Shown: one piece after another, positions 766 through 13,617 of the stretch | Position numbering within the stretch: the stretch's first letter is position 1 | Layout of the letters: every line of letters starts with the position of its first letter | DNA from: a virus | IMG/VR virus record: IMGVR_UViG_3300039092_000054 | Location: 1-20,591 of that record | Length of the DNA: 20,591 bases | Direction: 5' to 3' (one strand) | Position numbers and translations under genes: made by a program | The notes under the pieces: generated by a model | The model's input: only the letters and a program-made list of their open reading frames with translations | Database searches by the model: none | Told to the model about the DNA's origin: nothing

Positions 766-3700
766 ATGTTAACTGGAAATGAAATTTTAAGTGAGTATAC
801 TAAGTGTTTAGTCGACCCATGTTATGCAATTACCGAATATTTAAAAACCTTTGATAAAACAAAAGAAGGGTTTGTTCCGTTCAAACTATTCCCTAAACAA
901 AGAGATATTATAAAAGCCTATAAAAATCACAGGTTCACTATGGTTACTAAACCTAGACAGGCTGGTGTATCTACAACAACAGCTGCTTATGCCGCAGTAA
1001 AAGCTATATTCGCTGACCCTAATAACCCAGAGGCTATTCTAATTCTTGCAAATAAGCAAGATATGGCCTTTGAATTCCTTGATAAGATTAAAGATTTTGT
1101 TAATCAATTCCCTAGATGGGCATGGGGGTCTGAGTATTATGGTACTGAAGAAAAAGAAAATAAAAAGATTTATTCAACTGAGTCTAAAAAAGAACTTAAA
1201 TTACCTAATGGTAGTAGAATTAGGGCTGTTGCTACATCTAAAAACGCATTAAGGGGGTTTACACCTACTTGGTTAATTATGGATGAGGCGGCGTTTATCG
1301 AAAACGGTGCTATTGTTTTTGGTACAGCTTTGACGGCTTTAGGTTGTCTTAAGAAAGATAGTTTAATATTAACCGAAGGTGGGTTAGTAAGTATGGATGA
1401 GTTAGTAACTGAGAAAGATATATTAGGGTTTAGTGATTTAAAAACACCTCATAGAGTTTGTAATAAAGATGGTGTAATTGTAGACGCTACACAAACATTC
1501 GTTAGTGAATATGGGGAAACATTTAAAATAAAAACTAAATTAGGTATTGAATTGGAAGGTAGTTGGAAACACCCTATTCTAGTTAATAGAAACAATTCTG
1601 AAAAATGGGTTAGAATGAATAAATTGGAAGTTGGCGATAAACCGATTATACAATATAATCAAAATTATTTTGGTAAGTCAAGTAAGTTTGAGTTCAACTT
1701 TGAAAAAACACCTAATAATAAACCTGTGAATATTCCAACAAATTTGGAATCTAATTTAAATTTTTGTTATTTATTAGGGTTGTTTGTAGCTGAAGGTAAC
1801 TTCACTTCTAGAGGTATTACAATAACTAATACAGATAAAAGAATTCAAGAGTTTTTATTAAATGATGAAGCTGATTTAGGTAATGGTTTCACTCAAGTTG
1901 ATGATAGACATTTTCAATTTTATTCAACTGAATTAGTTTCTTGGTTTGAATCGTTTGGATTAAATAAACATAACGCTAGGGATAAAGAAATCCCCTTAGC
2001 TTTATTGAAGATGCCCAAGAGTGTTATTAAAGCCTTTTTACAAGGTATGTTTGATGGTGATGGAATGTCAACTATTAAAGATATTAAATATTCTAGCACA
2101 TCTAAAAAATTAATTAAAACATTACATACATTATTATTGAATTTTGGTATAATTTCTCATGTAAAGAAAAATAAATATAAAACAAGTGAATCTTCAATAA
2201 TCAAAAATAAAGACCGCGTTTGTATTATTTACAATTTAAAAATCTATTCTATAAACGCCCTTAGATTTTATGAGGAAATTGGGTTTAGAATTGGTAGAAA
2301 ACAAAATAACTATGAATATTTACTGAATAAAGTTGATAATAGTAGGTATGTATTAATAAATAAAGAGTTAATTTCTAATTTACTTAAGGAACATAATCTA
2401 CCTAAATATAAAGTTAGATTTTTAGATAGGTTTTGGGAGTCTAAATATGAAAGGTTAACTTATCATTCATTATATAAATTAATAGAAATAATACCAAATA
2501 GTGATTTATTAACTTATCTATTATCCCAAGTTAAATATAACGAATCATTTTATATTGATGAGATAGTGGATATTGAAAAATCTGAAGATTATACTTACGA
2601 TTTACACGTACCTGAAACAAATTCATTTATTTCTAATGGTCTTATTAGTCACAACACTGGTGGTAGAGCTTCTTTGGTTTCTACACCTAACGGTATGGAT
2701 TCGTTATACTACAAAACCTATGAACAGGCTATGAGTGGTGATAACGATTTTCATGTTATTGAAATGAAGTGGTATCAAGACCCTAGATATAACAAAGACC
2801 TGCGTTGGATTAATGAAGATGATGATGATGATATTATAGAAGAGGTTAAGTTTACGAAAGAGGGTGATTCTGAGGAAAGTGTTAGAGCTATCCACGAACA
2901 CTACGACAAAATGTTACAGAAAGGTTATAAACCTGAATCTAGTTGGTATCGTGAAATGTGTCGTGGTATGAACAACGATAAAAAGATGATTGCTCAAGAG
3001 CTTGATGTATCTTTTATTGGTTCTGGTGGTGCTGTTATTGACGATAAGTACATCACAATGCAAGAAAAGGAGAATGTTATTGAACCTGAATTTATTTCTG
3101 GTGATGAAAAAGAAATTTGGATATGGGAGGAACCTAAAGAGGGACGTCAATATATTTTATCTGCTGATGTTGCTAGAGGTGATGGAGAAGATTCTTCAAC
3201 TATAGTCATTATAGATTTTAATACCATGACTCAAGTTATGGAATATAAAGGTAAATTGAGACCAGACTTATTAGGTGATTTGGTTAATGAATATGGTAGA
3301 ATATATGATGCATTGGTGGTTGTAGATATTACTGGTGGTTGGGGTGTTGGTACTATTAACCGTTTATTAGATTTGGGTACACCTAATTTATACTACGCCG
3401 ACAGTTCAAGCAAACCTCTAGAAAAGAAGAGTAGAACCCCAAAGAATTATTCTGATGAAGGTAAATTCCCAGGTTTCAATGTAGGCGCTGGTCTCAGAGC
3501 GCCTATTGTAAGTCATCTAGAAATGATGGTCAGGATGAATGGCGTAAAAGTTAGGTCTAGAAGACTAACCTCAGAGATGAGAACGTTTGTATTTAAAAAC
3601 GGTAGGGCCGACCACATGGATGGGTATCATGATGATTTACTTATGGCTCTAGCTTATGCTTTATGGGTTGCTGAATACTCATTTAAAAAATTAAACGAAT

Positions 3701-3909
3701 CTAAAGAGAAAAGTAAGGCTATGTTATCTGGTTGGATGGTTAATAAGGGTGAAGTTAGTAATGAGGAATATAGACGTAATGGTTTTACATCAAAAAAAGA
3801 TAGAAGGAAGAAATTAACCACGAAACAACCTAACTTTAGTCACACTGTAGCTAAGAATATGCAAGACCCTAAGGGTAAGTATATGTGGTTATTTAGTGGT
3901 TCAAGATAA
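766..3909 (+). CDS. Terminase large subunit (gp17-like) interrupted by an intein
   Basis: This is the ATP-driven DNA packaging motor and headful nuclease. The precursor has 1047 residues. Removing the intein (residues 194-630) leaves 610, the usual size for T4 gp17. The ATPase domain shows Walker A KPRQAGVST (62-70) and Walker B LIMDEA (170-175). After the intein comes the coupling motif STPNG. The C-terminal RNase H-like nuclease has its acidic clusters: D801 in SADVARGDGEDS, D854 in VVVDITGG, and D956-D957 in GYHDDLL. The ATG at 766 is chosen because a late-promoter-like motif lies 11 nt upstream and the frame has no better start. The gene forms its own unit between the terminator at 702-730 and the portal promoter region. 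Splicing is required for function because the intein separates Walker B from the coupling motif. The family call is very secure. Confidence 0.96.
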   Translation: MLTGNEILSEYTKCLVDPCYAITEYLKTFDKTKEGFVPFKLFPKQRDIIKAYKNHRFTMVTKPRQAGVSTTTAAYAAVKAIFADPNNPEAILILANKQDMAFEFLDKIKDFVNQFPRWAWGSEYYGTEEKENKKIYSTESKKELKLPNGSRIRAVATSKNALRGFTPTWLIMDEAAFIENGAIVFGTALTALGCLKKDSLILTEGGLVSMDELVTEKDILGFSDLKTPHRVCNKDGVIVDATQTFVSEYGETFKIKTKLGIELEGSWKHPILVNRNNSEKWVRMNKLEVGDKPIIQYNQNYFGKSSKFEFNFEKTPNNKPVNIPTNLESNLNFCYLLGLFVAEGNFTSRGITITNTDKRIQEFLLNDEADLGNGFTQVDDRHFQFYSTELVSWFESFGLNKHNARDKEIPLALLKMPKSVIKAFLQGMFDGDGMSTIKDIKYSSTSKKLIKTLHTLLLNFGIISHVKKNKYKTSESSIIKNKDRVCIIYNLKIYSINALRFYEEIGFRIGRKQNNYEYLLNKVDNSRYVLINKELISNLLKEHNLPKYKVRFLDRFWESKYERLTYHSLYKLIEIIPNSDLLTYLLSQVKYNESFYIDEIVDIEKSEDYTYDLHVPETNSFISNGLISHNTGGRASLVSTPNGMDSLYYKTYEQAMSGDNDFHVIEMKWYQDPRYNKDLRWINEDDDDDIIEEVKFTKEGDSEESVRAIHEHYDKMLQKGYKPESSWYREMCRGMNNDKKMIAQELDVSFIGSGGAVIDDKYITMQEKENVIEPEFISGDEKEIWIWEEPKEGRQYILSADVARGDGEDSSTIVIIDFNTMTQVMEYKGKLRPDLLGDLVNEYGRIYDALVVVDITGGWGVGTINRLLDLGTPNLYYADSSSKPLEKKSRTPKNYSDEGKFPGFNVGAGLRAPIVSHLEMMVRMNGVKVRSRRLTSEMRTFVFKNGRADHMDGYHDDLLMALAYALWVAEYSFKKLNESKEKSKAMLSGWMVNKGEVSNEEYRRNGFTSKKDRRKKLTTKQPNFSHTVAKNMQDPKGKYMWLFSGSR
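1345..2655 (+). mobile_element. Intein with LAGLIDADG homing endonuclease in the terminase
   Basis: This is an in-frame insertion of 437 residues (precursor residues 194-630). It begins with Cys (CLKKDSLILTEGG, splicing block A). The block-B histidine is H269 in GSWKHP. The element ends with a block F/G region (YDLHVPETNSF, then LISHN) followed by Thr as the +1 extein residue. Between the splicing blocks lie two dodecapeptide endonuclease motifs, LLGLFVAEG (E343) and GMFDGDGM (D432), so both metal-binding acids are present. The flanking extein halves GTALTALG and TGGRASLVSTPNG join into a normal gp17-like ATPase sequence, which supports precise boundaries. The element should excise itself from the protein, and its endonuclease should cut intein-less terminase genes. 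No frameshift or missing block is seen, so it looks active. Confidence 0.94.
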
Positions 3910-3967: not shown

Positions 3968-5989
3968 ATGGCAGAAAAACCAACAGTATTTCAAAAATTA
4001 AGCAATGTCTTCGGTAAAGAGGGGATAAATCCAGAGGTTAAAAAAACCAATAGATATTCATTGGGTAATGGTACTGAATTACTAAAAACTAAATCAAAAG
4101 AGGAATACGAGACTGCTAAGTTGCAAGCTCAACAAGATAAGTACTTACAAGGTCAGTGGACTAAAGTAGATGGTGAGCTTTATCAACAAGCAATACACTA
4201 TGAAACAACTAGAGTTGGGTCATATTCGGATTTTGAAACAATGGAATTCTATCCAGAGATTTCTGCCACATTGGATATATTCATGGAAGAGTCTACAACC
4301 CCTAATGATAAGGGTGATGTAATAAACATATACTCTGGTAGTAAGAGGGTTAAAAGAATATTGCAGGATTTATTCATTAATAGATTAGACATACACACTT
4401 CACTACCTATGTGGTCTAGGAATTTATGTAAGTATGGCGACAACTTTGTACACCTAAACATTAATAGTAAAGCTGGTGTTGTTGGTGTTAGACAGCTACC
4501 TAACTTTGAAATCGAAAGAAGAGAGAATGACATTAGAGGTGTTATATCCCCATCGCAACTATCTGATGTAAATCAAGATGAGGCTAGAAATAAAACACAA
4601 TTTTATTGGAAGAGAAATGAGATGACATTTCAATCATGGCAAATAGGTCACTTTAGACTATTAGGTGATGATAGGAAATTACCTTATGGTACTTCATTTT
4701 TAGAGAAAGCTAGGCGTATATGGAAACAATTGATACTGGCTGAGGATGCTATGTTAGTTTATAGGGTAACTAGGGCACCAGAAAGACGTGTCTATAAAGT
4801 TTATGTTGGTAACATAGATAATGAAGACGTTAGTGGTTATGTTGATGATATTGCTAATAGATTTAAGCGTACCCCACTTATTGACCCTCAAACAGGTCAA
4901 ATGGATGTCAGGTATAATCAATTAGGTATTGACCAAGATATTTTTATACCAGTTAGGGATGAAAATGCTCAAACCCCTATTGATACCTTACCTGGTGCTC
5001 AGAACTTAGACCAGATTGCTGATATTGAATACCTACAAAGAAAGTTATTTACGGCGTTAAGGGTACCTAAAACCTTCTTAGGTTTTGAAGAAGCTCAAGG
5101 TGAGGGTAAGAATTTAGCATTGCTAGATATTAGATTTTCTAGAACAATCAATAGAATACAACAAGCCCTTTTACACGAGCTGAATAAAATTGCTATAATT
5201 CACTTACATTTATTAGGTTTTACTGATGATTTAGATAATTTTACACTTACATTAAATAACCCATCTACACAAGCTGAAATGCTTAAAGTTGAACATACAG
5301 CGGCCAAGGTTAATCTATATAAAGATGCAGTTGCTGATTCTGGAAATGGTTTTGGTGCAATGTCTATGACTAGGGCTAAAAGAGAGATATTAGGTTGGAG
5401 TGATGAAGAAATAAAACAGGATTTACTTGAACAAAGAATTGAAAAGGCTGCGGCTCAAGAGTTAGAAAACACAGGTAATGTTATTAAGAATACAGGTGTG
5501 TTTGATAACGTTGATAGAGTTTATGGTGATATGGAAATGGCCAGACTAGGTGGTGTTGTTGATGAGGAAGGTGACGGACCCGATGGTGGTGGTGGTAACA
5601 CTGGTAGTGTCGGCGGTGGCTTTGGTGGTGGCTTTGATGATAATGGTTTAGACTTAGATGATACTGACGTTGAAGACGGTGGTTTTGGTGATACCGAACC
5701 TTTAGATGACGCTGGTGCGGATAATGCCGATGTAGATACTGAAGACACCACTGATGAGTCTAAGAAAAAGAAAGGTAAGATAATTAACGAAAATTTAAAA
5801 CGTAACCCTAAAAATAGTTCAGTTAATAAATTCATTAACATGTTAGATGAGAGTAAAAAGGCTGAAAAGAAAAAGAAAAATGAGGTAACTAAATTTTATG
5901 ATAAATCAGTTAAATTTAACAAAACAATGGATTCTATGATAAATGAAATTGATGATAAATTGGGCGAGACTGAAGATATTAATGAGTAA
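3968..5989 (+). CDS. Portal vertex protein (gp20-like)
   Basis: This is the dodecameric head-tail connector through which DNA is packaged. It has 673 residues. Residues from about 70 to 470 carry the gp20-type core: a MEFYPEISATLDIFMEE helix, the TPNDKGDVINIYSG segment, the RRENDIRGVISPSQ region, and LRVPKTFLGFEEAQGEG leading into the long stem helices. T4 gp20 is roughly 520 residues, and most of the excess is a C-terminal extension. That extension is a Gly/Asp-rich low-complexity tract (about 535-590), then a Lys-rich stretch (SKKKKGK) and a charged helical end. The ATG at 3968 is preceded by an A-rich leader typical of Bacteroidota genes. Its position between terminase and protease is as in T4-like genomes. 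The family call is strong, but the function of the tail is unknown. Confidence 0.93.
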   Translation: MAEKPTVFQKLSNVFGKEGINPEVKKTNRYSLGNGTELLKTKSKEEYETAKLQAQQDKYLQGQWTKVDGELYQQAIHYETTRVGSYSDFETMEFYPEISATLDIFMEESTTPNDKGDVINIYSGSKRVKRILQDLFINRLDIHTSLPMWSRNLCKYGDNFVHLNINSKAGVVGVRQLPNFEIERRENDIRGVISPSQLSDVNQDEARNKTQFYWKRNEMTFQSWQIGHFRLLGDDRKLPYGTSFLEKARRIWKQLILAEDAMLVYRVTRAPERRVYKVYVGNIDNEDVSGYVDDIANRFKRTPLIDPQTGQMDVRYNQLGIDQDIFIPVRDENAQTPIDTLPGAQNLDQIADIEYLQRKLFTALRVPKTFLGFEEAQGEGKNLALLDIRFSRTINRIQQALLHELNKIAIIHLHLLGFTDDLDNFTLTLNNPSTQAEMLKVEHTAAKVNLYKDAVADSGNGFGAMSMTRAKREILGWSDEEIKQDLLEQRIEKAAAQELENTGNVIKNTGVFDNVDRVYGDMEMARLGGVVDEEGDGPDGGGGNTGSVGGGFGGGFDDNGLDLDDTDVEDGGFGDTEPLDDAGADNADVDTEDTTDESKKKKGKIINENLKRNPKNSSVNKFINMLDESKKAEKKKKNEVTKFYDKSVKFNKTMDSMINEIDDKLGETEDINE

Positions 5990-6811: not shown

Positions 6812-7111
6812 ATGACTCATATACTATTTCAAGCAGATGTAAACATAATTAATTGGTTATTGCAGCAAGCGCCAGTGGTGGTTGTTATGGGTGCTGCTAT
6901 ATACTGGTTGGCTGATAGATTAAAGAAAGCTGAAAATGATAAAGACGAGTTAGCTAAAGACGTCATCAAACTTACAACCCTATGGGAAGAAAAGAGTGAT
7001 AAGTTAGACGTTAGGAACGAAAAGTTAGGTGAGAAAAACACTAAAGTTAACGAAGAAATTTTAGTTTTATTAAGGCAAATAAAGATGATAGTTACTGAAA
7101 GAGGTTTATGA
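6812..7111 (+). CDS. Small single-pass membrane protein with coiled-coil tail
   Basis: The protein has 99 residues. A short N-terminus is followed by one hydrophobic segment (about 20-36, APVVVVMGAAIYWLADRL). A long, highly charged helical tail follows, with heptad-like spacing to the end (KKAENDKDELAKDVIKL onward). This layout resembles small BhlA-type holin-like phage proteins, but the same layout is found in many unrelated proteins, so the holin reading is weak. The start lies one nucleotide after the stop of the preceding gene. Its stop overlaps the start of the cupin gene in an ATGA arrangement, which implies translational coupling within the 6037-7632 group. It could equally be a membrane-anchored assembly factor for proheads. 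Confidence 0.75.
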   Translation: MTHILFQADVNIINWLLQQAPVVVVMGAAIYWLADRLKKAENDKDELAKDVIKLTTLWEEKSDKLDVRNEKLGEKNTKVNEEILVLLRQIKMIVTERGL

Positions 7112-7632
7112 ACAGTTTTATAGATAACATTTTTGGAAAGAAAAATGAAAATTACAATAAGGCCGTTGATGGTCTAAAGAAAATGAAAGATAAGTTTGAT
7201 GGTTTAATTATGTCCTTCCCTGACGTTACTCCAATAGAGATTGTTTTACTTACAGACACATGGCAAAAATTACCTAAAGAGATTTCTAAAGGGGTTGAAG
7301 TCATGATTCTTAAAACGAATATGAGTGAATGCAAAGCTTTTATTACTAGCTATGACCCATACTCTTATGTGATACCACATAAGCATGACGAAAGATATGA
7401 ATATGGGTTAATATTAGAAGGTACTATAATTAATGAAACCATTGGTTGTGAATATAAAAAAGGTGATGTTTATAAATTTGGACCTAACGAGATGCATTAC
7501 TTGGTTTCTGGCCCAAAAAAAGCTTTAGTTTATTCTTTACACTCTAAGAAGTCAAATTTAGATGATTTACTTTCACCTATCCAGATAGACAAAGCATTAA
7601 AATCGCTTAATAATTTAGAGATATTAAAATAA
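7108..7632 (+). CDS. Cupin-fold protein
   Basis: The 174-residue protein has a single cupin domain. The first cupin motif is seen as H91-x-H93-x4-E98-x6-G105 (PHKHDERYEYGLILEG). The second is G119 to H130 (GDVYKFGPNEMH). The three histidines and the glutamate that usually bind a metal are therefore all present. The N-terminal 85 residues have no recognisable motif. The start codon overlaps the stop of the upstream membrane protein (ATGA). Cupins include dioxygenases, isomerases and sugar-binding proteins, and the substrate cannot be predicted here. A metal-binding cupin between portal and protease genes is unusual for T4-like head modules. It could be a virion component or a metabolic enzyme carried as cargo in a late operon. 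Confidence 0.85.
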   Translation: MNSFIDNIFGKKNENYNKAVDGLKKMKDKFDGLIMSFPDVTPIEIVLLTDTWQKLPKEISKGVEVMILKTNMSECKAFITSYDPYSYVIPHKHDERYEYGLILEGTIINETIGCEYKKGDVYKFGPNEMHYLVSGPKKALVYSLHSKKSNLDDLLSPIQIDKALKSLNNLEILK

Positions 7633-8212: not shown

Positions 8213-10024
8213 ATGACCAATGATTATAAAATATTAAGAGGTGGAAAAACTGGTAGCGGTTTATTGATTGAAGGTGACGCTGGTTTTATTGAACCTAGTG
8301 ACATTAGAAATAAATCTTTTATTTCAGAAGTTAATAAAGTTGGTAATGGCCCTGTTATGGCTGAACCGTTAGTTCTATTTGTAATTCTACAAAAATATGG
8401 TATTGAAAACAGAAATGGTAGGATATATCCAGAAGACATTTTAAGGAGAGAAGCGAACAGATATCAAGAGTTAATTGACCAAAGATTATCTATTGGTGAA
8501 TGCGTACCAAGAGGTACTGAAATATTTACTAAAGACGGTTGGAGGGAAATTCAAGATATGGTTATTGGTGATGAGATATTCACTTTAAATACTAACACTA
8601 ATGAATTAGAAGTACAATCAGTTTCTAGAACCACAGATAAAAAATATAATGATGATATGATTCATATATACAACTCTTCATCATTAGATATGTTAGTAAC
8701 CAAAAAACATAAAATTGTTTTATGGGATAGGAATGACAAGCCATATATTTTAACAGCTGAAGAATTATATGATAAAATTAATAATGGTGATTCTAAAGTT
8801 TCACATTCATATATTAAAAATTCAGGTGAGTGGGTTGGTGAGGATTCTAAAAAAATAAATATCCCGAATTCGAATTATGAAATAGATTCTGAATTATGGG
8901 CTAGATTTCTAGGTATATTTATCGCTGATGGTCATTGCTCTGGAACTAGAGGGGGTAAAAATAAAAATTCGGTTACTATTACTCAGGTTAAAAAAGAATC
9001 TTCAGAAAAAATAATAAACTTATTAAATGAGTTACCATTTGAATATTCGATTAGTGATGATAGACAATTCATAATTTATGATAAACCATTATATAATTTT
9101 CTATTTGATTTAGGAAATTCCGAAGAAAAATATATACCTAATTACGCAAAAAATTGGAATGTTAATTTATTGAATATTTTATTAGATTGGATGCTTTTAG
9201 GGGATGGTAGAAATAGAAGTGATAAAAATGGTAAATTAATGAAAGAATATTATACTATTTCAGATAAATTATCAGAAGACGTTTTTGAAATTATGCTTAA
9301 GATTTCTAATGGCGCAACTTTTAATACCCGCATACCAGAAGATAGGTATATTACAGATACTAAAATAATTAATGAAGAGGTTGAAACTGATGGGATGTTA
9401 GAATTAGTTAAACGTAAAGTTAAAACTAAGCGATTAATAGAAGCGTCTAATTCTAAACCATTGCATATCATTTCTGAAAGACGTTCTAAGGGGATTTCAC
9501 TAGATACACGTTTTACTAAAGCAGAAAAAATACCATTTAATGATAATGTTTATTGTGTTACTGTTGATAATGGAACTTGGTTAATGAGACATAATGGTAA
9601 AATTTCTTGGACACACAATAGTGACCACCCAGAGTCATCTGTTATTTCAAATAGAAATGTATCACATGAAATTAAAAAAATATGGTGGGAAGGTACAACC
9701 TTAGTTGGTGAAGTCGAAATCATCATGTCACCTGGTTTTATTAACCAAGGTATAATATCTTGTGAGGGTGACCAAATAGCTAACATGTTAAGAAAGGGAA
9801 TCCGTGTAGGTGTATCTTCTAGGGGTGTTGGTTCGTTAGATAATATAAATGGTAAATTAATTGTACAAGATGATTTCGAAATCATATGTTGGGATATAGT
9901 AACTAGTCCTAGTACGCCAGGTTCTTATATGTTCAACAATAAGTCTGACGCACAGCCATTTATGGAATCTAAAATGAAGAAAGACAATCTATTAATTGAT
10001 AAATTAAACAAGTTTTTAATTTAG
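8213..10024 (+). CDS. Prohead core protease (gp21-like) interrupted by an intein
   Basis: This serine protease cleaves scaffold and capsid proteins during head maturation. The precursor has 603 residues. Removing the intein (97-469) leaves 230, close to T4 gp21. The N-terminal extein has the strand-rich region with LFVILQKYGIENRNGRIYPEDIL. The second part starts with the catalytic-histidine motif SDHPES (H472). It also has the serine motif GVSSRGVGS (S535/S536), and D561 in CWDIVTSPS is the candidate third triad member. The His-Ser-Asp order and spacing fit the gp21 family. The ATG at 8213 follows a late-promoter-like motif by 16 nt. The intein splits the GE-SDHP motif directly beside the catalytic histidine, so the unspliced precursor should be inactive. 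The scaffold, its substrate, is the next gene. Confidence 0.94.
   Translation: MTNDYKILRGGKTGSGLLIEGDAGFIEPSDIRNKSFISEVNKVGNGPVMAEPLVLFVILQKYGIENRNGRIYPEDILRREANRYQELIDQRLSIGECVPRGTEIFTKDGWREIQDMVIGDEIFTLNTNTNELEVQSVSRTTDKKYNDDMIHIYNSSSLDMLVTKKHKIVLWDRNDKPYILTAEELYDKINNGDSKVSHSYIKNSGEWVGEDSKKINIPNSNYEIDSELWARFLGIFIADGHCSGTRGGKNKNSVTITQVKKESSEKIINLLNELPFEYSISDDRQFIIYDKPLYNFLFDLGNSEEKYIPNYAKNWNVNLLNILLDWMLLGDGRNRSDKNGKLMKEYYTISDKLSEDVFEIMLKISNGATFNTRIPEDRYITDTKIINEEVETDGMLELVKRKVKTKRLIEASNSKPLHIISERRSKGISLDTRFTKAEKIPFNDNVYCVTVDNGTWLMRHNGKISWTHNSDHPESSVISNRNVSHEIKKIWWEGTTLVGEVEIIMSPGFINQGIISCEGDQIANMLRKGIRVGVSSRGVGSLDNINGKLIVQDDFEIICWDIVTSPSTPGSYMFNNKSDAQPFMESKMKKDNLLIDKLNKFLI
8501..9619 (+). 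mobile_element. Intein with LAGLIDADG homing endonuclease in the prohead protease
   Basis: This is an in-frame insertion of 373 residues (precursor residues 97-469). It begins with Cys (CVPRGTEIFTKDGW, block A). The block-B histidine is H166 in LVTKKHKIV. It ends in VYCVTVDNGTWLM followed by SWTHN (blocks F and G), with Ser as the +1 extein residue. The central endonuclease has LGIFIADGH (D239) and WMLLGDGR (D331), so both acids are kept even though the second motif is divergent. The flanking exteins join as IGE/SDHPES, the normal protease motif. The sequence differs clearly from the terminase intein in its +1 residue and endonuclease region, so the two look like independent elements and not a recent duplication. 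Confidence 0.93.
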
Positions 10025-10158: not shown

Positions 10159-11769
10159 ATGAAAGACGAAAAAAACAAGTCTATTATAGAAGAAGCCTTA
10201 GCGGAATTTAATCTTATTGAAGAGAATATAAATTCGAATACCAAAGAAATACTTCGTTCGGTTGCGAAAGAAGAAATTACAGGTTCGCTAAAAGAATCCT
10301 TGAATGAGGATGATTATGATATCGAAGATATCGAAGATGTTGATGCTGACACTGACAGTGATGTTGATGTTGACGTTGATGAATTACCAGTTGATGATGC
10401 CGCTGAAGAAAGTGGCTCAGAAGAACTAGAACTTGATGACATGGATATGGACTCTGAGGAAGAAGGTGAAAGCCTTGACGGAGAAGGTAGCGAAGACTAC
10501 GGAATGGACATGACAGGTGCATCAGACGAAGAAGTTATCTCAGTTTACAAAAAATTAAGCGGAGATGATGAAATTGAAGTTGTATCATCAAATGAGGTAG
10601 TAATTACAGACCCAGAATCAGGTTCACAATATAATGTGAAGATGGATAAGGGTGATAGTCTTATCGACCAAGGCGAAATGGAAGCTTCTAGTTTAGAAGC
10701 TGAAGGTCACGATAAAATGGAAGAAGAAAATTCTGAAATGGAAGATGGTGACCACAAAATGCAAGAAGAAGAAGATGAGGGTGTAGTTTACGAAATTGAG
10801 TTATCAGAAGAAGAAGATGACGTAAATGAAGAAACTAAAATTGGAGCTACCGCTGGAAACAGTAATAATCCACAAGTAAGTGATGTAAATAAAGGTTCAG
10901 ATGTAGCTGCTGTTAACACAGGAGATATTGACAACCAAAAAGCATCTACTGACACTGAAACTTCAGGTGATAATCTTGAAGGTGGATTTGATGAAGAAGG
11001 ACAAAACGGTAGTGGTGACGCTCACGCAGAACACGTTATGGAAATGGATAGTTTCAATGGCGGTGGAAGTGATGTCGAAGGAGCCGCAGCTGGATTAGGC
11101 GAAATAATCGATGGTCTTAAAAAGCTTATGAAAATGGGTGGAGCTGTCGGTCAAAGAGCTAAAAATGCTTTAATGGGTCTATCTAAAAATTCAGAAATGG
11201 ATGAGGAAGAATCAATTGAAGAGCATATTCCAAAAGCTAAAGGTGAAGCGCACAGAGCACCAGCAAAAGCTGACATTGGTCAGCCAGTTGGAGCGGGAGC
11301 TAAGAATGTTAAAGGTGTTAAAGGTGAAAGTGTTGCAGAAAAGAAATTAGCTACAGCAATTTCAAAATATAACACACTTTTAGGTGAAGCTAAAAAGATT
11401 AAGGAAGAGAACGAAATGTTCAGAAACTCTCTTAAAGATTTTAGAAAGTCAATTACTGAGACTGCCGTATTTAATACTAACTTAACTTATGCTACTAAAT
11501 TATTTTTAGAGCACTCAACTACTTCAGAAGAAAAACAAAATATCTTAAGTAGATTTGATGAAGAGGTTAGTACAATCGGAGAGTCAAAGAAATTGTATAA
11601 ATCAATAAGCTCTCAATTAGGTGAAAAAACTCCTATCACAGAGTCAATTGAAAATAAATTAGGTTCTGAGAAAAGTACAAGTCAGTCAAATCAATTAAAT
11701 GAGACGACAGCTTATGTTGACCCAGCACAAAAAAGAGTTCTTGACTTAATGAAAAGAACAAATAAATAA
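10159..11769 (+). CDS. Prohead core scaffold protein (gp22-like)
   Basis: The protein forms the internal core on which the capsid assembles and is then destroyed by the prohead protease. It has 536 residues. The N-terminal 25-30 residues form a helix. Residues from about 50 to 225 are extremely acidic, with DVDADTDSDVDVDVDE-type repeats and many Glu/Asp/Ser. A Gly/Asn/Asp-rich linker follows, then from about 390 a helical coiled-coil region (AEKKLATAISKYNTLLGEAKK onward). The C-terminus VLDLMKRTNK is short and basic, a common capsid-contact feature of scaffolds. T4 gp22 is about 270 residues, so this one is about twice as long, mainly through the acidic region. The assignment rests on composition plus its place between protease and capsid genes. 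No stand-alone motif proves it. Confidence 0.82.
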   Translation: MKDEKNKSIIEEALAEFNLIEENINSNTKEILRSVAKEEITGSLKESLNEDDYDIEDIEDVDADTDSDVDVDVDELPVDDAAEESGSEELELDDMDMDSEEEGESLDGEGSEDYGMDMTGASDEEVISVYKKLSGDDEIEVVSSNEVVITDPESGSQYNVKMDKGDSLIDQGEMEASSLEAEGHDKMEEENSEMEDGDHKMQEEEDEGVVYEIELSEEEDDVNEETKIGATAGNSNNPQVSDVNKGSDVAAVNTGDIDNQKASTDTETSGDNLEGGFDEEGQNGSGDAHAEHVMEMDSFNGGGSDVEGAAAGLGEIIDGLKKLMKMGGAVGQRAKNALMGLSKNSEMDEEESIEEHIPKAKGEAHRAPAKADIGQPVGAGAKNVKGVKGESVAEKKLATAISKYNTLLGEAKKIKEENEMFRNSLKDFRKSITETAVFNTNLTYATKLFLEHSTTSEEKQNILSRFDEEVSTIGESKKLYKSISSQLGEKTPITESIENKLGSEKSTSQSNQLNETTAYVDPAQKRVLDLMKRTNK

Positions 11770-11799: not shown

Positions 11800-13617
11800 A
11801 TGTCAAATTTTTTAACCTCAGGTAAAGTTGGTAATGTAGGTCTTAACCACATGAAAACAATTCGTGAAAACACTATCAACAAATGGAATTCTTTAGGATT
11901 CTTAGATGGTCTTAAAGGTCACGTTAAAGAGAACATCGCTCAGTTATATGAAAACGAAGCTTCTCACTTGTTAAACGAGTCTACTGACGCTGGAAGTTCA
12001 GGTTCATTCGAAACTGTTGTGTTCCCTATCGTAAGAAGAGTATTCTCAAAGTTATTAGCTAATGATATTGTATCTGTACAAGCTATGAATATGCCAATTG
12101 GTAAATTATTCTTCTTTGTACCACAAACATCATCTAGATATGACTCTGCTAGTGGTAGCTACGGTGACCCTTACAAAGACGGTCCTGAATTCTCTGCTCA
12201 CACTTCAATGGGTTCAGATGGTTTACCAGTTGTAAAAGGTGTTGATGGATATACTCCAACAAAATACCAAGAGAAAAACCTATATGACCTTTATTACAAT
12301 GATGGATTATTTGATGCATCAAAAGGTGAAATAACAATTCAAACAGGTTCTCTTAACCTAGTAACGTTAAATGAAAGCGGTAAGTTTGAAGCTGCAAGTA
12401 ATGTAAATGAACTTCCAACTGGAACTGATGGTTCTTTAAGGAATGTCATTATTCAAGTTTCTGGATTTAGTTCAGAGAACAAAGGAAGATTAACTGGACC
12501 AGATGGTAACCCAATGGACACTGAATCTTTCATGGCATCTTTAAAAGTTACTAACAACGCGGATGGTGATTTAAATGACCAAGATGATAATGTAATTTTT
12601 GGTAAAGGGGGAGAAATTCCTTTCAGATTAGTAACTCAAAAATACGGTAAAGGTATTGTTGAATATAATGATGTGTGTGATGACGCTGGTGTTATCTACT
12701 TAGAATTAGATTTAACTCACCCAGTAGAAGCTAACGGAACGTCAACATACGATGGTTATGTAGGTGTTGATTTGGATACGGTTCCAACAACTACAATAGG
12801 TTCTACTGGATTAACTTCTAATGACTTTGCAGTATCATGGGCAGAATATGCTCCATTAGAACTTGAAACTGAAATGGGAGAAGTATCTTTCAAATTAGAC
12901 GAAGTTGTTGTTTCTGTTGAAGAAAGAAAATTGAGAGCTACATGGTCTCCAGAATTAGCGCAAGATGTTAGTGCATTCCACAACATTGATGCTGAAGCTG
13001 AATTAACTGCAATGCTTTCTGAGCAAGTTGCTGCTGAAATTGACAGGGAAATCTTAAGAGACTTAAGAAAAGCTGCTGCATGGCAACTAAGATGGGATTG
13101 GAACGGATGGAGAAAAGCTTCATTGGCAGCCAATGCTTATACTCAAAAAGACTGGAATCAAACTTTAATTACTAAAGTTAACCAAATTTCAGCACAAATC
13201 CACAAGTCTACTCTTAGAGGTGGTGCTAACTTTATCGTAGTTTCTTCAGAGATTTCTGCTGTATTCGATGATTTAGAGTACTTCCACGTAAGTGATGCAT
13301 CTCCAGAGCAAGACCAATATAACATGGGTATCGAGAAAATCGGTTCATTATCAGGTAGATATCAAGTATATAGAGACCCTTATGCACCTTCATGGTCATT
13401 GATTATGGGACACAAAGGTAAGTCTTTATTAGATACTGGTTACATTTACGCACCATACGTGCCAATGCAACTAACACCTACAATGTATAACCCATTCAAC
13501 TTTGCACCAGTTAAAGGTATAATGACACGTTATGCTAAGAAAGTGGTAAACAACAGATTCTACGGAGCTGTTAGAGTTGATGGATTAACAACATTTAACC
13601 CGAACGAATTAAGATAA
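11800..13617 (+). CDS. Major capsid protein (gp23-like)
   Basis: The HK97-fold shell protein has 605 residues (T4 gp23 has about 520). The N-terminal region (1-60) is helical and ends in LLNE-S. This matches the gp21-type cleavage rule (L/I-x-E before a small residue), so E60/S61 is the likely maturation site. After it come ETVVFPIVRRVFSKLLAND and the MNMPIGKLFFFVPQ strand, both typical of gp23. The C-terminal half has the conserved WSPELAQDVSAFHNIDAEAEL and DREILRDLRKAA helices, and ends with VDGLTTFNPNELR. The extra length lies around residues 190-340, a Gly/Asp-rich segment likely to be a surface insertion domain. The gene starts 30 nt after the scaffold stop with an A-rich leader and no promoter-like block of its own. 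A strong terminator follows. Confidence 0.95.
   Translation: MSNFLTSGKVGNVGLNHMKTIRENTINKWNSLGFLDGLKGHVKENIAQLYENEASHLLNESTDAGSSGSFETVVFPIVRRVFSKLLANDIVSVQAMNMPIGKLFFFVPQTSSRYDSASGSYGDPYKDGPEFSAHTSMGSDGLPVVKGVDGYTPTKYQEKNLYDLYYNDGLFDASKGEITIQTGSLNLVTLNESGKFEAASNVNELPTGTDGSLRNVIIQVSGFSSENKGRLTGPDGNPMDTESFMASLKVTNNADGDLNDQDDNVIFGKGGEIPFRLVTQKYGKGIVEYNDVCDDAGVIYLELDLTHPVEANGTSTYDGYVGVDLDTVPTTTIGSTGLTSNDFAVSWAEYAPLELETEMGEVSFKLDEVVVSVEERKLRATWSPELAQDVSAFHNIDAEAELTAMLSEQVAAEIDREILRDLRKAAAWQLRWDWNGWRKASLAANAYTQKDWNQTLITKVNQISAQIHKSTLRGGANFIVVSSEISAVFDDLEYFHVSDASPEQDQYNMGIEKIGSLSGRYQVYRDPYAPSWSLIMGHKGKSLLDTGYIYAPYVPMQLTPTMYNPFNFAPVKGIMTRYAKKVVNNRFYGAVRVDGLTTFNPNELR

Follow-up and report, generated by a model that had tools for sequence, protein, structure and literature searches.

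The window, a 20.6-kb virus record, carries a T4-type head gene cluster, in which the portal-like and scaffold-like genes were assigned by position. The following genes were recognized:

766-3909, terminase large subunit
3968-5989, portal-like gene
8213-10024, plus strand, gp21-like prohead protease, intein included
10159-11769, scaffold-like gene
11800-13617, gp23

A further gene of the cluster (7108-7632), lying after the portal-like gene and before that of the protease, gave weak cupin matches, below the Pfam cut-off.

The protease ORF (8213-10024) encodes 603 amino acids in one unbroken translation. It matched Peptidase_S77, the T4 gp21 family, over residues 471-573 (5.9e-13, over the Pfam cut-off), the PHROG head maturation protease (3.7e-29) and, by sequence, PDB 5JBL (6.2e-12). 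The protein is interrupted by an intein, and its parts are as follows (a slash in the motifs below marks an intein junction):

8213-8500, plus strand, N-extein (residues 1-96), from end-to-end alignment with intein-free relatives
8501-9619, plus strand, intein of 373 amino acids (C97-N469), from Pfam and NCBIfam matches, the empty site in relatives and same-site inteins elsewhere in phages
8699-8710, plus strand, splicing block B, TKKH (TxxH), intein residues 67-70; T67 and H70 are invariant in seven aligned inteins
8906-8932, plus strand, first LAGLIDADG motif, FLGIFIADG, intein residues 136-144; found in the family
9179-9208, plus strand, second LAGLIDADG motif, LLDWMLLGDG, intein residues 227-236; found in the family
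9605-9619, plus strand, C-terminal splicing block SWTHN with the His-Asn end; HN ends 11 of 15 site-a inteins (see below)
9620-10024, plus strand, C-extein (residues 470-603 and stop codon) with Ser470 as the +1 residue, from the Peptidase_S77 match and relatives
9626-9628, plus strand, catalytic His codon (precursor H472, spliced H99, T4 His85)
9815-9817, plus strand, catalytic Ser codon (precursor S535, spliced S162, T4 Ser140)
9893-9895, plus strand, probable catalytic Asp codon (precursor D561, spliced D188, T4 Asp168)

A His-Ser-Asp triad has been named for a related protease (PMC5694885). H99 of the spliced protein aligned with T4 His85 and was invariant in 34 intein-free relatives, and H99, S162 and D188 were all invariant among the relatives, as befits a gp21-type protease. 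T4 gp21 itself reads GE/LNHPP around His85, which is replaced by Ala in the solved chain (5JBL). The predicted model of an intein-free relative also matched 5JBL (E 7.5e-8), with loop 97-107 poorly defined. T4 gp21 shares the extein fold and the three catalytic residues with the protease of the window, but it has no intein, and control of its activity lies with an N-terminal segment (PMC9958956). Since His, Ser and Asp all lie in the C-extein, the intein does not part the catalytic residues from one another; it cuts them off from the N-terminal 96 residues, a point missed in the initial annotation. The N-extein ends with Ile-Gly-Glu (8489-8500, the E96 region), which resembles the preference of T4 gp21 for cleavage after Glu (PMC9026906). 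This likeness may be a coincidence, because the intein-free relatives likewise have an invariant GE. Features named I-TevIII-like stand beside Salmonella phage proteases.

Relatives were collected using the extein sequence as query, and at least 80 loci were found, about 75 of them intein-free across the site. The intein-free relatives listed, up to 85% identical, are uninterrupted through GE/xDHPES, which fixes the intein boundaries at C97 and N469 (8501-9619). The joint is GE/SDHPES, two residues upstream of the His equivalent to T4 His85. The initial annotation had placed the intein between E96 and SDHPES, two residues before the catalytic histidine and with Ser as the first extein residue, and had proposed an alignment with T4 gp21 and intein-free relatives and a search for intein-free alleles; both were carried out, the joint fell where it had been predicted, and Ser470 indeed follows N469. 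Four further contigs with the whole gene carry an identical or near-identical allele (0 or 4 nt differences). This recurrence of the intein allele rules out an assembly artefact.

The residue directly after the junction was then compared. It is Ser or Cys in the intein-bearing alleles of this site, whereas in the listed intein-free alleles it is Leu in 60 of 75 (Ser in 8, Ala in 5, Cys in 1 and Val in 1). The clade of the window has Ser at this position in its intein-free relatives as well, so that the residue there either predates the intein or was left behind when the site was occupied at an earlier time. Conservation of the DNA was also measured along the gene: the homing target is well conserved, its 24-bp segment ranking 20 of 219, but the motifs around the catalytic Ser and Asp rank higher. 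The idea that homing simply favours the best conserved DNA in the gene was consequently rejected, and conservation is part of the reason for targeting of the His loop by this family, not all of it.

The intein was matched by Pfam Intein_splicing (4.4e-6, below Pfam's own cut-off) and LAGLIDADG_3 (3.3e-4, just under it), and the NCBIfam intein N-terminal model begins at residue 97. Its sequence has what is expected of a class 1 (standard) intein, namely the nucleophile C97, the TxxH block, His-Asn followed by Ser470 and an exact empty site. It also has the two motifs with acidic residues of a LAGLIDADG homing element, together with movement independent of the host gene (see below). Both acidic residues are intact in the window intein, and its endonuclease is apparently active, in agreement with the initial annotation.

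In order to gather the family, the intein served as the first query and alignments of inteins as the later ones, and 119 loci were classified. The intein lies in a gp21-like protease, at the His motif, in 108 of them; the remainder comprise one locus cut off inside the intein, three with broken frames and seven in other genes. In three loci (L289, L290 and L291), relatives of the protease inteins have frames broken around the match and could be decayed, split or misassembled. After removal of copies at 95% identity at least 62 non-redundant members remained, and the following counts are lower bounds. At least 15 members occupy site a (two residues before His, as in the window), at least 10 site b' (two residues after His) and at least 37 site b (three residues after His). 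All three junctions fall within five residues, and the protease is interrupted there in 62 of the 62 listed members, each of which has an N-terminal Cys and is followed directly by Ser or Cys. In the motif GE/SDHPE/SS, site a and site b each coincide with a Glu/Ser step. Peptidase_S77 was above its cut-off in all 10 precursors picked for diversity. The intein is thus a member of a family of phage inteins that specialise in this one catalytic loop. Two members are in named but unannotated phage records, those of the huge phage LR756508.1 and the cultured Desulfovibrio phage 7757; the other relatives are all metagenome contigs. A viral scan using the LR756508 site-b intein as a lone query gave no matches, whereas alignment queries did. 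In the scan of genome contigs only distant relatives were obtained (21-31% identity), and the ten with flanks read were in other genes and none in a prohead protease.

The intein and extein trees are in conflict. L136 and the window are 62% identical in the intein and 39% in the extein; between L194 and L247 the values are 55% and 28%. In L168 a site-b intein lies inside a protease that nests with site-a hosts. The intein tree, the deep branches of which are weakly supported, requires six site changes, with the site-b inteins of L147 and L154 placed within the site-a clade. When intein presence was mapped on a 59-row protease tree, 9 changes were counted against 10.3 with shuffled labels, which, the set having been chosen by hand, shows patchiness and not a rate. 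These results indicate that the family has shifted its point of insertion on several occasions and has passed from one protease to another, distant one.

Alternatively, the inteins at the three junctions might be unrelated, each the product of its own invasion of the conserved loop, instead of forming a single family with a shifting junction. The weak resolution of the deep branches would fit this, as would the identity between the window intein and site-b inteins, down to 27-36% in most cases. Nevertheless, L147 and L154 (40-50% identity) lie inside the site-a clade, and when site-a inteins were compared with 50,697 phage records, the best matches were protease inteins of site b. Three of the four non-protease inteins fall outside the protease inteins, the fourth, on a very long branch, not doing so, and the AU test spoke against a single site-a clade with a borderline p of 0.046 for a group chosen after the tree had been seen. 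Independent invasions are for these reasons considered unlikely, and a single family remains the preferred reading.

The acidic pair of the endonuclease is intact in 57 of the 62 listed members. In L109 and L110, with inteins at the same site as in the window, the first motif is without its acidic residue, the second motif without its GDG, and the intein is 27 residues shorter. A pair that is mostly intact, with decay in L109/L110, is what the homing cycle predicts. Between the window and L085 the intein had a dN/dS of 0.12 and its endonuclease part one of 0.13, with 0.11 for the C-extein; the endonuclease is accordingly under purifying selection. The decay in L109/L110 could suggest that the window intein is likewise a fixed remnant, with a dead endonuclease and kept only because precise loss is rare; with both acidic residues intact and a value of 0.13 for its endonuclease part, this is extremely unlikely.

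Patchy presence, conflict between trees and an intact endonuclease are the marks of a homing element. The locus is very probably occupied by a selfish, self-splicing homing intein in a gp21-like prohead protease, a member of a phage-borne family with three junctions around one His. The site, the motifs, the distribution of the family, the conflict between trees and the selection on the endonuclease are shown by the sequences themselves; from there we infer splicing, DNA cleavage and homing, which would proceed as follows. The LAGLIDADG endonuclease would cut intein-free alleles at the DNA for the conserved loop of the catalytic His (GE-x-DHPES), and repair from an intein-bearing copy would insert the element along with flanking codons. 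After translation the intein would be excised by attack of C97, transfer to Ser470, cyclisation of N469 and ligation of E96 to Ser470, leaving an ordinary protease. Members of the family, each at one of the three neighbouring junctions by the His, move between distant proteases. A conserved homing target, together with the lethal effect that imprecise loss would have, explains the position beside the active site.

The unspliced precursor is probably inactive, as is reasonable for a 373-amino acid domain inserted two residues from the His in a motif that is invariant in relatives. In the precursor model the intein is confident and the main helices and strands of the extein are kept. The His loop is of low confidence in both the precursor and the intein-free models, with a pLDDT below 50 in the precursor. 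The initial annotation had suggested that the speed or conditions of splicing could act as a timer for head maturation; the unspliced precursor would keep the protease inactive until the prohead is complete and so prevent premature digestion of the scaffold. The junction two residues from the catalytic His and the interruption of the same loop in every listed member are in favour of this proposal, and a regulatory role has been put forward for phage inteins before (PMC5050341). However, relatives at 85% identity do without the intein, its presence is patchy (9 against 10.3 changes), it moves between distant proteases, and nearly all members have kept their endonuclease intact, a sign of homing. 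Retention in lineages beyond that of a mobile element, as expected for a regulatory intein, was not seen in the hand-chosen 59-row set. Moreover, T4 gp21 already has its own control: in its pre-active form the N-terminal region holds it inactive until it is triggered in the finished prohead, activation being thought to follow the joining of gp24 to the prohead vertices (PMC9958956). The timer is therefore regarded as very unlikely, and the suggestion was not upheld. Equally slight is the chance that the His loop has been colonised repeatedly because the intein is an assembly-linked switch, with splicing that stays slow as long as the protease has not been packed into the core of the prohead; if true, the switch would be a natural intein-based zymogen for capsid maturation. 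The protease inteins also supply natural zymogen-like constructs for studying how the prohead protease is switched on.

Inteins in the active centres of phage proteins were already known, above all in terminases (PMC5050341). The inteins of the mycobacteriophage terminase large subunit, like those described here, are patchily distributed LAGLIDADG inteins in active centres of head or packaging proteins, and they have been shown to splice and to cut intein-free targets (PMC5050341). They differ in the host protein and in occupying seven sites across the ATPase domain, compared with three within five residues here. The haloarchaeal MCM inteins a-d (PMC10643990) also occupy several close sites in a catalytic domain, and at MCM-d the +1 residue is Ser if invaded and mostly Pro if not, comparable with the Ser/Cys and mostly Leu found here. 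That gene is cellular, however, and two neighbouring inteins are often present in one allele (PMC10643990), an arrangement that was not seen here. The protease inteins of Desulfovibrio phage 7757 and LR756508.1 have the host protein and the intein family in common with the window, but their junction is three residues after the His and they are 27-28% identical to the window intein. No report of an intein in a prohead protease was found in the open-licence literature, to which the search was confined. What is new is a family that is specific to one host protein and uses three adjacent junctions beside a single catalytic residue. A family true to one loop, with a junction that shifts by one to five codons around that residue, offers a way to study re-targeting of an intein together with its endonuclease.

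A second intein is present in the window at 1345-2655. It comprises 437 amino acids (C194-N630 of the terminase large subunit) and matched LAGLIDADG_3 with 2.4e-19. This intein is missing from the 99-100% identical terminase in the L091 record, a phage of the same kind that keeps the protease intein, and the terminase intein is thus a strain-level presence/absence polymorphism, which is a further point in favour of the homing reading. In the L110 record (G007:C1:9033-13028) the terminase appears to hold two insertions in a 1335-amino acid open frame, one near the intein site of the window and the other, about 1.1 kb long, close to query residue 799.
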